From NCBI GenBank assembly GCA_035559535.1, contig DATMBG010000046.1:1-34355 (forward strand): a DNA stretch of 34,355 nucleotides, in the 5' to 3' direction. Within the stretch, counting starts at the first letter, position 1. Each line of letters begins with the position of its first letter. Under the pieces are notes generated by a model. It made no database searches. It saw only the letters and a program-made list of their open reading frames with translations, and was not told the DNA's origin. Shown here one piece after another: positions 11,766-16,860 of the stretch. The stretch comes from Candidatus Limnocylindrales bacterium. Lineage in GTDB: Bacteria > Moduliflexota > Moduliflexia > Moduliflexales > JAUQPW01. The translations under genes were made by a program, and so were the position numbers.

Positions 11766-11793
11766 TTGACTTCTCAGGGTTTCGGTATAAAAT
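11766..11793 (+). promoter_or_regulatory. Candidate sigma-70 promoter for the dehydrogenase operon
   Basis: TTGACT (11766-11771, five of six consensus bases) is followed after 16 bp by TAAAAT (11788-11793, five of six). It sits about 100 bp upstream of the ATG at 11897 on the same strand and would drive the three-gene operon. Confidence 0.5.
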
Positions 11794-11896: not shown

Positions 11897-12937
11897 ATGA
11901 AAGATAAATTTAGAGTGGGTCTTACCCGGGATTTTCTTACAGACGACGGGAGGTTAGTTTTTGAAGATATCGGTTTGAGCCTATTGGATGAGCAACCCCA
12001 TATCGAATACACTTTTTTTAAAGAACATTTTCCCGAGATTCAACCGGATCAGATTCGGGGATTAGATGGAATTATTGTATTGGCCCCTCGGGTGACCCGG
12101 AATACCTTAAAGGGAGCCGATCGACTGGTGGTCATTGCGCGATTTGGAGTCGGTTACGAATCTGTGGATTTAGATGCCTGCACCGACCACAATGTGGCTA
12201 TATTTACAACCCCTGGAGCGGTGGAAAGACCTATGGCCGGGGGGATTATGGCCTTTTTATTGGCCCTTTCCCGAAAGATGTTGATTAAAGATCGATTGAT
12301 TCGATCTGGGCGTTGGAAGGATAAAATTTTCCATATGGGAATAGAATTTATTGGAAGAACGCTGGGATCGGTCGGAATAGGAAACATTGGAAGTGAGATG
12401 TTTCGTCTGGCTAAACCCTTTGGATTTGGGAGATTCCTTGCCTACGATCCTTATGTAACCAGAGAAAAAGCTGAAGCCTTAGGGGTTGAGTTGGTAAACG
12501 ATTTAGACACTATCTTTCGGGAATCAGATTTTGTAACGGTCAATTGCCCTCTAACCAAAGAAACTGCCAGAATGATAGGAGAGCGTCAATTCCGCCTGAT
12601 GAAAAAGACGGCCTATTTTGTTAATACGGCACGGGGAGGCATCGTAGATCAAAAAGCCCTGACCAGAGCCCTCACCGAGGGATGGATAGCCGGGGCCGGA
12701 ATAGATGTCTTTGAGCAAGAACCTGTAGATCCCGATGATCCTCTACTCAAACTGGACAACGTCATTGTAACCGCCCACTGTATTGGATGGACCCATGAAG
12801 CTTTCCGGGATATAGGACGTATGGACTGTATGGGCATTGTCAAAGCCTCTCGAGGTGAGATACCCGATCATGTGGTTAATAAGGCAGTGCTTCAAAAGAA
12901 GGAATTCCTGGATAAACTGGCACAGTATAAGAAATAA
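11897..12937 (+). CDS. D-isomer-specific 2-hydroxyacid dehydrogenase
   Basis: The protein has 346 residues and oxidises a D-2-hydroxyacid to the 2-oxoacid with NAD(P), or the reverse. The nucleotide-binding glycines are G160, G162 and G165 (VGIGNIG), with D184 at the end of the next strand (LAYDPY), which favours NAD over NADP. The catalytic set is visible: R246 (NTARGGIVD), E275 (EQEP) and H294 (VTAHCIGWTHEA). The last motif differs from the common HxxG(A/G) pattern but keeps the His. It is the first gene of a unit with the binding protein and kinase downstream, eight bases before the next open frame. The substrate is unknown; the sugar-type binding protein beside it hints at a sugar acid, which is inference. 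Confidence 0.9.
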   Translation: MKDKFRVGLTRDFLTDDGRLVFEDIGLSLLDEQPHIEYTFFKEHFPEIQPDQIRGLDGIIVLAPRVTRNTLKGADRLVVIARFGVGYESVDLDACTDHNVAIFTTPGAVERPMAGGIMAFLLALSRKMLIKDRLIRSGRWKDKIFHMGIEFIGRTLGSVGIGNIGSEMFRLAKPFGFGRFLAYDPYVTREKAEALGVELVNDLDTIFRESDFVTVNCPLTKETARMIGERQFRLMKKTAYFVNTARGGIVDQKALTRALTEGWIAGAGIDVFEQEPVDPDDPLLKLDNVIVTAHCIGWTHEAFRDIGRMDCMGIVKASRGEIPDHVVNKAVLQKKEFLDKLAQYKK

Positions 12938-12996
12938 CCAAGGAGGTGGAAGACTTATTTAACTTACTTTTGAAGAAGGGGAAAGGATCAGGAAGA

Positions 12997-14361
12997 ATGG
13001 CCATGGATTGGACCTTCATATGGTATATAGGTACCCTCCTCTGTGGTTGGATTTTGACCTTTACCCAGGTAAACCCGGTGGAAGGCAAAGATAAAAAGGT
13101 CGTCGTACTCTGGCATACAGAAACAGAGCCTGAATTCCTTAAAGCCATGGGGGAAATTATTCAGGATTTTGAGACCATCCACCCGGATATTCAGATCCAG
13201 CAGGTAGGTATCTCCTGGGATACGCTGGAGAATAATCTTGTAACCGCCCTCGGTTCCGGTAAGGTCCCGGATATAACCCATGGCCAGCCTATTACCTGTG
13301 CGTTTTTTTATGCGAAAAAACTTCTTCGCCCTCTGGACGATATCGTTGCTTCTATCGGAGAGGACAATATCTGGGAAGTGGTGAAGAAGATCGGTTACTT
13401 TGATAACCACTACTATGGCATTGTCCATGCGGCCGGAACTTCTCTTCTTATTTATCGAAAAGATTTATTCAAACAAAAACAACTCACCCCCCCCAAAACC
13501 TGGGAGGATTTTCTACAGATTGCCGGGATCTTAACGGAAGATCTTGATGGAGATGGTCGGGTAGACCGTTATGGGTTAGGCCTTCCGGGAACCTCTTTTT
13601 TTATTACCGGTGTTTTCGATGAACTCCGCCAATCTAATAATGCTGATCTCTTGGATTCCAAAGGAAATCCCTTATTAACCGAGAAACCAATCTTAGAGCT
13701 TCTGGAGTTTTACAGGAAACTCGTACCTTATCTCCCTCCCGATTGGATTCGATATGGATATTTAGATACCTTTGTGGCCCTTGCCCGTGGAAAAGTAGCC
13801 ATGATTTATACGGGTTATGGGCAAGGAGTCGGATATATCGAGCGATATGCTCCCAAGGAAATAGCCGACCCGGAACACTTTGGAGTTCTTACCAAACCGA
13901 TCGGACCTCTGGGAACCTATCCTGTTTCCCAGATGAATGCCGAACCGTGGATGATTTTTAAAGAAGCCCGGCATCCGGAAGAGGCTGCAGAATTTCTCAA
14001 GTTTTTTTATCGGGATGAAAATTACCTTAAATATATTCTGTCCATGCCGATTCATTTTCTTCCTATTACGAAATCTCTTCGAAACCACCCAAAATATCTG
14101 GCCAATCCGGTCATTAAGAAATGGCATGAATGGCTGATGGCTCAGCAAACTTATTTTGAAAATAATCTGGCGCGGCCTCTCTTAGTTACTCATTGGGAAG
14201 ATTTGCGAAAACCATTTCTTTTGGAAGTTCTTACCTCCAACATTATCTCGGAACTGGTTTTAGAGGTAACTGTACAAGGGAAACCTTCCGCTGAGGCGGC
14301 AATGAAGGCCCAAAGGAGCCTTGACAAGCTTTTACTTGCGGGTGGATATCGCAGAAAATAA
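12997..14361 (+). CDS. Periplasmic sugar-type ABC solute-binding protein (family 1)
   Basis: The protein has 454 residues from ATG 12997, which has AAGGA nine bases upstream; the frame extends to a GTG at 12946 that overlaps a ribosome site and is unlikely to be used. The N-terminus has a hydrophobic stretch (WTFIWYIGTLLCGWILTF) consistent with a signal peptide and no good lipobox. The body matches extracellular solute-binding family 1: KKVVVLWHTETEPE at the start of the mature part, FETIHPDIQIQ, and a Ca-loop-like DLDGDGRVDRYG at 182-193. These proteins bind sugars or oligosaccharides in the periplasm. Its stop codon is immediately followed by the kinase ATG, and no permease or ATPase gene is nearby, so I infer a receptor role. 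Confidence 0.85.
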   Translation: MAMDWTFIWYIGTLLCGWILTFTQVNPVEGKDKKVVVLWHTETEPEFLKAMGEIIQDFETIHPDIQIQQVGISWDTLENNLVTALGSGKVPDITHGQPITCAFFYAKKLLRPLDDIVASIGEDNIWEVVKKIGYFDNHYYGIVHAAGTSLLIYRKDLFKQKQLTPPKTWEDFLQIAGILTEDLDGDGRVDRYGLGLPGTSFFITGVFDELRQSNNADLLDSKGNPLLTEKPILELLEFYRKLVPYLPPDWIRYGYLDTFVALARGKVAMIYTGYGQGVGYIERYAPKEIADPEHFGVLTKPIGPLGTYPVSQMNAEPWMIFKEARHPEEAAEFLKFFYRDENYLKYILSMPIHFLPITKSLRNHPKYLANPVIKKWHEWLMAQQTYFENNLARPLLVTHWEDLRKPFLLEVLTSNIISELVLEVTVQGKPSAEAAMKAQRSLDKLLLAGGYRRK

Positions 14362-16860
14362 ATGAAAACCATTCGTTTTAAGTTTCTGGTTTTTCCCCTT
14401 TTGTTATCCACCATTCCTTTAATTATTCTCGGGTTTATTTCCTTTAAAGATAGCAGCCGGGTTCTACAAGAAACAACTTATCAGCGACTCAACCAGATGA
14501 TTCAGGATTTTCAACGGGATATCGACACGCACCTTCTGGATCGACTCAGTGCGGTTCAGTTTTTAAGTGAAAGCTCCGCCCTGGCTACATTTTCTCGTTT
14601 GGGAATGGAAAAACACACCTTTGACCTGGAGGTTTATCATTTCCAAAGATGGAACGGACTCAAATTGGATCCTTTTCCCTCTGTAGGAGATTTAGTTAAC
14701 TTTAGTGTGGGATTAGGGGAGTTAGGGGGGAAAAAAATCCTGGATTTCGGGTTATATCCTTCAGAGGAGTATGTGGGACTGGACGGGATGGTTCGCCAAC
14801 ATGTTTATGCGGGAGGATCCAACGATCAAGATTTTCAAGAAGTCCATTTAGAAAAACTTGACCGGTCTCAAGAGATCTGGTTTCAGGAAGCTAAAAAGGG
14901 AAACAATTATATTTCAAATCCCCAATTTGTGAAACTCTACTTGAAAGAATATGCTCTGAACCAGGTAGGGGAGAAAGAGCGGATCATCGAAAAAAAATTG
15001 ATAGTTCTGGCAGTTCCTCACCGGGTTCAAAAAGAGCTCCGCGGAGTCTTGATGGTTACCACAACTCCCGATATTCTCTATCGGCAATTGAAAGAGCTGA
15101 CCTCCCATTATGGAACAAGCTATATTGTAAGTAATCAAGGGGTTATCCTGGCCCATCCCAATCCTGAACAGGAGGGTCAGAAGATAGAAGCCGATCTTCT
15201 AGCCCTTTTGAAGGATTCCGGGAAGGGATGGAAATCTTATGGGGAACAAATGCTTATCTGCTCTTCCAGTTTGCTAACAGGATGGATCCTTACTCTTAAT
15301 ATCCCGGAAGAATGGATTCTACAACCTATTTCTAACCTACGCTTTAAACCTCTTATCGTAGTAGGAATCACCGTTGTTGTAACGGGTTTATTAATGATAG
15401 GGATTACCAATCGCTTTGTTGTCAATCCTTTACAAGTTTTATCTAGAGAGTCTGAAATCATTGCGAGGGGAGAATATTCCCACAGGTTGAAAATTTCTAC
15501 GGGAGATGAAATTGAGAGGCTGGCCCTTGTCCTGAATACGTTGGCCGAGAGGGTTCAATCCCATACCGAAAACCTGGAGATGCTGGTTCAGGAAAGGACC
15601 GAAGAACTCCAGAAAAAAAATCGCCAACTGGAGGAGACCCTGGAACAACTCAAAATAACTCAAAACCAGTTGATTCAGTCGGAAAAGATGGGATCTCTCG
15701 GTCAAATGCTCTCAGGGGTTGCCCATGAAATAAATAATCCTCTGGCTGTTATAAAAATGTTTACCGAGTTACTGATGATGAATCTGGCCTCAGACCAAGA
15801 TACCGTGGAAATCTTAAAGAAAATGGATCAGGCAACCGACCGGGCCAAAAGGACTATACAAAACCTGCTTACCATTGCAAGGAAGCATAAACCTGAAAAG
15901 CGCTTCATTGATGTTAACCAGGTCATAGAGGGAGTTTTAGAGCTACGATCTTATTACTTACGTGTCAGTAATATTGAAGTTATTAAAAACCTTCAACCAA
16001 ACCTTCCTAAAACCATGGCCGATTTTCATCAACTCCAACAAGTATTTTTAAATATTATCCTGAACGCCGAGCAGGCTATGCAAGAAGCCCATCGCCAGGG
16101 ACGATTGATTATTCAATCCAAATTGATAGAATCCGTTCAAGAATCCCCCTTGCTCAAAACTTTTGTGCTAAATCCAGGAGAAAAGCTTCTTCATCCGACT
16201 CCTCCGTTCATTCAGGTTTCTATAACCGATGAGGGTCCCGGAATTTCGCCGGAAAATTTAAGGCGGATTTTTGATCCCTTTTTCACAACCAAAGACGTGG
16301 GAAAAGGCACAGGGCTTGGGTTGAGTATCAGTTATACGATCATGCAGGAACATGAAGGAAGAATTTATGCAACCAGCGAATGGGGGAAAGGGGCCACCTT
16401 TTTTATAGAACTTCCCGTCAAAGTTGAAGAAGAGAAATCACAGGAACCCGCATCTCCCCGGGGAAATCAGCTACCTCATCCTATACTTCCTGAGAAGCGA
16501 GTTCTGGTGGTAGACGATGAAAGTATCATCCTGGAGATCCTTTCAGAGATCTTACAAAAACTGGGATATATGGTCGATACCTCGAGAACGGCTGACACAG
16601 CTTTGGAAAATCTTAACTCAAAGTCCTATGATTTCCTTATCACCGATATTAAAATGCCCCAAATGGGGGGTCAGGAGCTCTACCAACACATAAAGCAACG
16701 AAACCCAAAGCTTGCCAGACGGATTATTTTCATTACCGGAGATCTGTTATCCGACGATACCTTGAAATTCATCCAGGAAACTGGAAATCTATGTCTGGCC
16801 AAGCCTTTCAGTATGGAAGAACTTCAACGGATTCTTCATCGGCTATCCCAGATGACCTGA
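14362..16860 (+). CDS. Hybrid sensor histidine kinase with periplasmic sensor and C-terminal receiver
   Basis: The protein has 832 residues, and its ATG directly follows the TAA of the binding protein. Domains in order: membrane helix about 7-28, a 300-residue periplasmic region of probable dCache type, membrane helix about 332-352, HAMP about 353-405, a coiled coil, and HisKA with H455 (AHEINNP). The ATPase domain follows with the N box at N568, D623 (DEGPGIS) and a GTGLGLS lid motif. The receiver covers about 712-830, with acidic residues D718-D719, acceptor D762 (LITDIKMP) and K814. There is no HPt or output domain, so the receiver may be regulatory or pass phosphate to a distant partner. 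It probably reads ligand occupancy of the binding protein. It is convergent with ntrC, with 8 bp between stops. Confidence 0.92.
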   Translation: MKTIRFKFLVFPLLLSTIPLIILGFISFKDSSRVLQETTYQRLNQMIQDFQRDIDTHLLDRLSAVQFLSESSALATFSRLGMEKHTFDLEVYHFQRWNGLKLDPFPSVGDLVNFSVGLGELGGKKILDFGLYPSEEYVGLDGMVRQHVYAGGSNDQDFQEVHLEKLDRSQEIWFQEAKKGNNYISNPQFVKLYLKEYALNQVGEKERIIEKKLIVLAVPHRVQKELRGVLMVTTTPDILYRQLKELTSHYGTSYIVSNQGVILAHPNPEQEGQKIEADLLALLKDSGKGWKSYGEQMLICSSSLLTGWILTLNIPEEWILQPISNLRFKPLIVVGITVVVTGLLMIGITNRFVVNPLQVLSRESEIIARGEYSHRLKISTGDEIERLALVLNTLAERVQSHTENLEMLVQERTEELQKKNRQLEETLEQLKITQNQLIQSEKMGSLGQMLSGVAHEINNPLAVIKMFTELLMMNLASDQDTVEILKKMDQATDRAKRTIQNLLTIARKHKPEKRFIDVNQVIEGVLELRSYYLRVSNIEVIKNLQPNLPKTMADFHQLQQVFLNIILNAEQAMQEAHRQGRLIIQSKLIESVQESPLLKTFVLNPGEKLLHPTPPFIQVSITDEGPGISPENLRRIFDPFFTTKDVGKGTGLGLSISYTIMQEHEGRIYATSEWGKGATFFIELPVKVEEEKSQEPASPRGNQLPHPILPEKRVLVVDDESIILEILSEILQKLGYMVDTSRTADTALENLNSKSYDFLITDIKMPQMGGQELYQHIKQRNPKLARRIIFITGDLLSDDTLKFIQETGNLCLAKPFSMEELQRILHRLSQMT

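Follow-up and report, generated by a model that had tools for sequence, protein, structure and literature searches.

A family 1 solute-binding protein and a hybrid histidine kinase are encoded back to back in Candidatus Limnocylindrales bacterium (contig DATMBG010000046.1 of assembly GCA_035559535.1, 34,355 nt), and we favor, with a probability of about 0.58, the view that they form an SBP-dependent sensor kinase, in which a binding protein recruited from a transport family presents its ligand to the kinase, so that sensing is indirect. This proposal builds on the gene arrangement, the protein families, the confident fold of the binding protein, the conservation in two species and the linkage of the relatives to permease genes. 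The binding protein belongs to a family of ABC-importer proteins, but in this genus its gene is joined to that of a hybrid kinase and has no linkage to permease genes. In the proposed mechanism, the binding protein would capture a small solute outside the inner membrane, and the loaded protein would dock on the dCache-like sensor. The signal would pass the membrane via the HAMP domain to the kinase, which may relay phosphate via its own receiver to a regulator whose gene lies in another place, a step for which we infer both the output and the direction of the response. It is difficult to tell from sequence that a binding protein serves in signaling and not in transport. The step is visible here, as the relatives keep two permease genes and this genus has the kinase gene instead.

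Gene cluster and its conservation

The analyzed DNA, hereafter the window, is the entire contig C46 (34,355 bases) of the 5.6 Mb assembly, and the view ends at the contig edges. Seven proteins around the finding and seventeen others were scanned with Pfam. No ABC permease or ATPase was recognized among the predicted genes scanned on the 34,355-base contig, which agrees with the initial annotation in that none is nearby. Two window proteins of 408 and 849 residues (window:711-1937 and window:4201-6750) gave zero Pfam matches at E <= 1e-5. The features of interest are the following:

11766..11793, + strand: promoter-like site 5' of the dehydrogenase gene (8 such sites found, 9.0 expected in shuffled sequences)
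11897..12937, + strand: D-isomer 2-hydroxyacid dehydrogenase, PGDH / glyoxylate reductase-like (Pfam 2-Hacid_dh_C, E 7.6e-58)
13003..14361, + strand: family 1 solute-binding protein (Pfam SBP_bac_1, E 1.2e-34)
14362..16860, + strand: hybrid histidine kinase with the order transmembrane span, dCache-like sensor, transmembrane span, HAMP, HisKA, HATPase_c, receiver (Pfam, hydropathy)
14440..15351, + strand: region coding for the extracytoplasmic sensor, about residues 27-330 of the kinase

The dehydrogenase gene ends at 12937, 65 bases ahead of the binding-protein gene on the same strand, and is probably the first gene of an operon with the binding protein and the kinase. Its best NCBIfam scores fall under the equivalog cut-offs, and the promoter-like sites upstream of it are no more numerous than expected by chance for this region. 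At the junction of the binding protein and the kinase, the TAA stop (14359-14361) abuts the ATG start (14362-14364) with zero gap, exactly as had been described from the sequence. The initial annotation was also right about the binding-protein gene itself, but its first base was placed at 12997, whereas the conserved start is the ATG at 13003, six bases later. The 12997 position reads ATT in the sister species, where an indel is found further upstream, and a possible ribosome-binding site, AGGAAG, is kept there ahead of the ATG at 13003. A GTG at 12946 was rejected as start codon, because the indel of the sister species breaks the frame 5' of 13003.

In another genome of the genus (contig also listed as JAUQPW010000104.1), the gene order is unchanged, with CorA, then the dehydrogenase, the binding protein and the kinase, followed by NtrC, NtrB and GlnA. 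The binding proteins of the two species are 92-94% identical, and the kinase sensors 93%. Only two copies of the kinase are known, from two close species of one genus, and in both of them the binding-protein gene lies directly 5' with the junction kept. Between the two species, dN/dS is lowest for the dehydrogenase (0.026), followed by a permease-linked paralogue of the binding protein on contig C32 (0.065), the kinase (0.14) and the binding protein itself (0.22). All four compared genes are thus constrained, the window binding protein least so. The dS of the kinase is about 0.24, and the synteny counts as modest evidence, because the two species are closely related. The two genes might be chance neighbors, that is, a transposed or leftover transport gene beside a functionally unrelated kinase, and several permease-less family 1 genes are indeed dispersed in the genome. 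We consider this highly improbable, however, as the genes join without a gap on the same strand and as both frames are conserved under purifying selection in the second species.

Downstream of the kinase and convergent with it, NtrC-like and NtrB-like genes are followed by genes for glutamine synthetase and P-II (window:16869-21571), and the stop codons of kinase and NtrC are separated by 8 bases. A response regulator with an output domain is absent from the kinase's own cluster, as the kinase terminates in a receiver and the convergent NtrC/NtrB-like pair comes next. The assignment of this NtrC as the regulator of the kinase is unsupported, because it comes with an NtrB-like kinase of its own and adjoins glutamine synthetase.

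A transport-family protein without its permeases

The N-terminus of the binding protein forms a hydrophobic signal or anchor, and no clear lipobox was seen in it. An AlphaFold2 model of the protein (mean pLDDT 89.1) matched ABC sugar-binding proteins in Foldseek with TM up to 0.85, and proteins that bind sugars or a dinucleotide are present among the top matches. The ligand is probably a small solute, a sugar or a sugar derivative. Relatives were collected from the genomes of L030 and L031 and from 8 of 345 genomes sampled in the phylum to which the L030 genome belongs, with that genome counted among them. Those with 46-55% identity have the same two ABC permease genes directly 3' of the binding-protein gene in all eight scorable loci (L030, L031, L046, L047, L048, L049, L050 and L054), while a ninth, L051, stops at a contig edge. 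The permease pair is also found with the more distant L052 and L053, with the C32 paralogue and with the sister-species ortholog of the latter. In a phylogenetic tree, the permease-linked group encloses the window pair as a separate, supported clade. As the permease pair lies beside 8/8 relatives, the window protein is, judged from these sequence relationships, a member of a transport family that lacks the usual permeases. Outside the genus, homologues of the binding protein thus regularly sit beside ABC permease genes, which is the very observation that the initial annotation had named as speaking against its proposal. In L046, a permease-linked homologue, the binding-protein gene (L046:5318-6715) is broken by an in-frame TAG, either a mutation or a sequencing error.

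Two signature motifs, HGQPITCA and HAAGTSLLIYRKDL, are common to the window protein and its relatives L030 and L031, and the C32 paralogue departs from both. As the window protein has kept the motifs, it has presumably retained the ligand class of this group. Of the otherwise-invariant positions, 20% are altered in the window protein compared with 7-12% in other close clades, as would be expected if contacts with a permease have become irrelevant. Ordinary divergence could also account for the raised substitution rate, since the C32 paralogue is permease-linked and is altered at 34% of such positions.

The lack of a transporter gene has to be seen in the context of the genome, which contains 22 family 1 binding-protein genes. 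For about eight of these (L010, L011, L012, L014, L084, L085, L087 and L089), no permease was recognized within about 5 kb, a count that is approximate because the comparison to reference permeases can overlook distant ones. With such a proportion, having no transporter is not special; permease absence alone is weak evidence of sensing, and the conserved pairing without a gap is stronger. Four paralogous binding-protein genes are scattered over the genome (L010:4893-6179, L011:5494-6780, L012:5399-6685 and L015:5106-6392), with 67-73% identity and Tat-type-looking N-termini. Three of the four have no recognized permease nearby, and the L015 gene is flanked by two genes that by eye appear to encode oligopeptide-type permeases.

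A search of the genome for a lone permease that could match the window protein, as had been suggested, yielded only one close candidate, which is located on C32 beside its own binding-protein gene. This permease is 59% identical to permA of L030 and is a member of the family that also includes the permeases beside the relatives. Importers of this family can draw on components encoded elsewhere. The window protein may therefore still act in transport, serving the C32 permease pair or another set, and share an operon with the kinase since the kinase senses the same nutrient. We regard this as unlikely, as the binding protein adjacent to the C32 permeases shares only 38-40% identity with the window protein and differs in the signature motifs, so that its ligand is probably a different one, and as it is, by the dN/dS values given above, the more constrained of the two.

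The kinase sensor and a related chemoreceptor

In the kinase, Pfam identifies HAMP, HisKA, HATPase_c and Response_reg domains, and hydropathy places membrane spans at about residues 8-26 and 331-349, with some 300 residues outside, which confirms the initial view of a hybrid kinase with a sensor of this size. The sensor matches dCache_1 (PF02743) at E 1e-9 to 6e-11, with 42.8 bits against a gathering cut-off of 45, and all four members of the sensor family match this domain at E <= 0.01. Solved structures gave no match to the sensor, and a structure model from the four sequences was poor (mean pLDDT 34) and was discarded.

The nearest relatives of the sensor, with 43-48% identity, are the outer domains of a C32 chemoreceptor (L022:4856-7495, G000:C32), which reaches 48%, and of its sister-species ortholog. 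The similarity is unevenly distributed, as residues 121-240 are 58-70% identical and the rest 15-40%, with 15-22% in residues 241-325. As the binding site of dCache domains usually lies in the membrane-distal module, the kinase and the chemoreceptor probably respond to a common ligand or partner. At the thresholds applied, relatives of the sensor turned up only within the genus, and neither in plasmids and viral contigs nor in 385 genomes mainly from across the domain. Searches of 395 and 399 genomes belonging to the phyla of two genomes that carry the transporter were equally empty outside the genus, but they are weak evidence because they contained no positive control.

The gene of the C32 chemoreceptor has no binding-protein gene next to it, so that the sensor module may bind a ligand unaided. 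Cache domains usually bind small molecules directly, and the kinase could likewise bind its signal through the dCache-like module, most of whose resemblance to that of the chemoreceptor falls in residues 121-240, with the adjoining binding protein having no signaling role. This strikes us as quite unlikely in view of the strict gene pairing in both species; moreover, the conserved part of the sensor could equally be a docking surface, and ChvE is an example of one binding protein that serves a kinase and chemotaxis alike. A more elaborate possibility, which we hold to be distinctly doubtful, is that the former transport protein acts as a shared periplasmic receptor for the window kinase and the C32 chemoreceptor, the sensor module docking family 1 proteins instead of providing a small-molecule pocket. 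We maintain the view that the binding protein presents its ligand to the kinase, but our confidence is lowered because the chemoreceptor has the sensor without a binding protein beside it and because 8/22 family 1 genes lack a recognized permease in their vicinity. The occurrence of this rare sensor module in a kinase and a chemoreceptor offers a direct way to examine whether its role is the docking of binding proteins or the binding of solutes.

Comparison with known systems

Periplasmic binding proteins that act on hybrid kinases, as the window protein would, are found in CBP-ChiS of Vibrio cholerae, TorT-TorS and LuxP-LuxQ. CBP, TorT and LuxP belong to other binding-protein families, and the NCBIfam models for TorS and LuxQ match the window kinase only far under their cut-offs. 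In Escherichia coli, the family 1 binding protein MalE presents its ligand to the membrane receptor Tar, but Tar is a chemoreceptor whose sensor has four helices, and the maltose transporter uses MalE as well. A transport role is also mentioned for CBP in the CuaDSR paper (PMC10384115).

A close precedent by description is CuaDSR of Ruminiclostridium cellulolyticum, in which CuaD, a dedicated protein of family 1 fold encoded beside its own kinase, is distinct from CuaA, the transport protein (PMC10384115). By itself, the outer part of CuaS has no affinity for cellobiose, and it is bound by CuaD (PMC10384115). The initial annotation was hence wrong in stating that the known cases involve either other families or a binding protein shared with a transporter. 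Like the window kinase, CuaS has two membrane spans and an outer domain, there of about 265 residues, with the binding-protein gene beside the kinase gene. In contrast to the window kinase, which is a hybrid in an operon without a regulator, CuaS is of the plain type and its cluster includes a YesN/AraC-type regulator; furthermore, CuaD is a lipoprotein and the window protein shows no clear lipobox.

The same paper cites similar systems from Clostridium beijerinckii, Geobacillus stearothermophilus, Vibrio cholerae (chitin) and Bordetella pertussis (citrate), and describes XylFII-LytS of C. beijerinckii and AraPST of G. stearothermophilus as having separate binding proteins for sensing and transport, the former feeding a sensor kinase (PMC10384115). 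By description, these two differ from the window pair in kinase architecture and organism. XylFII also belongs to a different binding-protein family. As systems such as CuaDSR are already known, the window pair would add one example to a known kind of mechanism and not establish a new principle. The notion of a distinct sensing module has thus to be narrowed, as the pairing is real and occurs in both species, but the relatives are permease-linked and CuaDSR sets a precedent.

The genome contains a second module of this kind on C22 (L092:5410-10077; G000:C22, about 235400-240080), for which an identity as PgtABC was rejected, the NCBIfam PgtA match being far under the cut-off. There, a weak SBP_bac_1 protein that by eye appears to be a lipoprotein, a PAS-containing HisKA kinase and a sigma-54 type response regulator are encoded in tandem on one strand.
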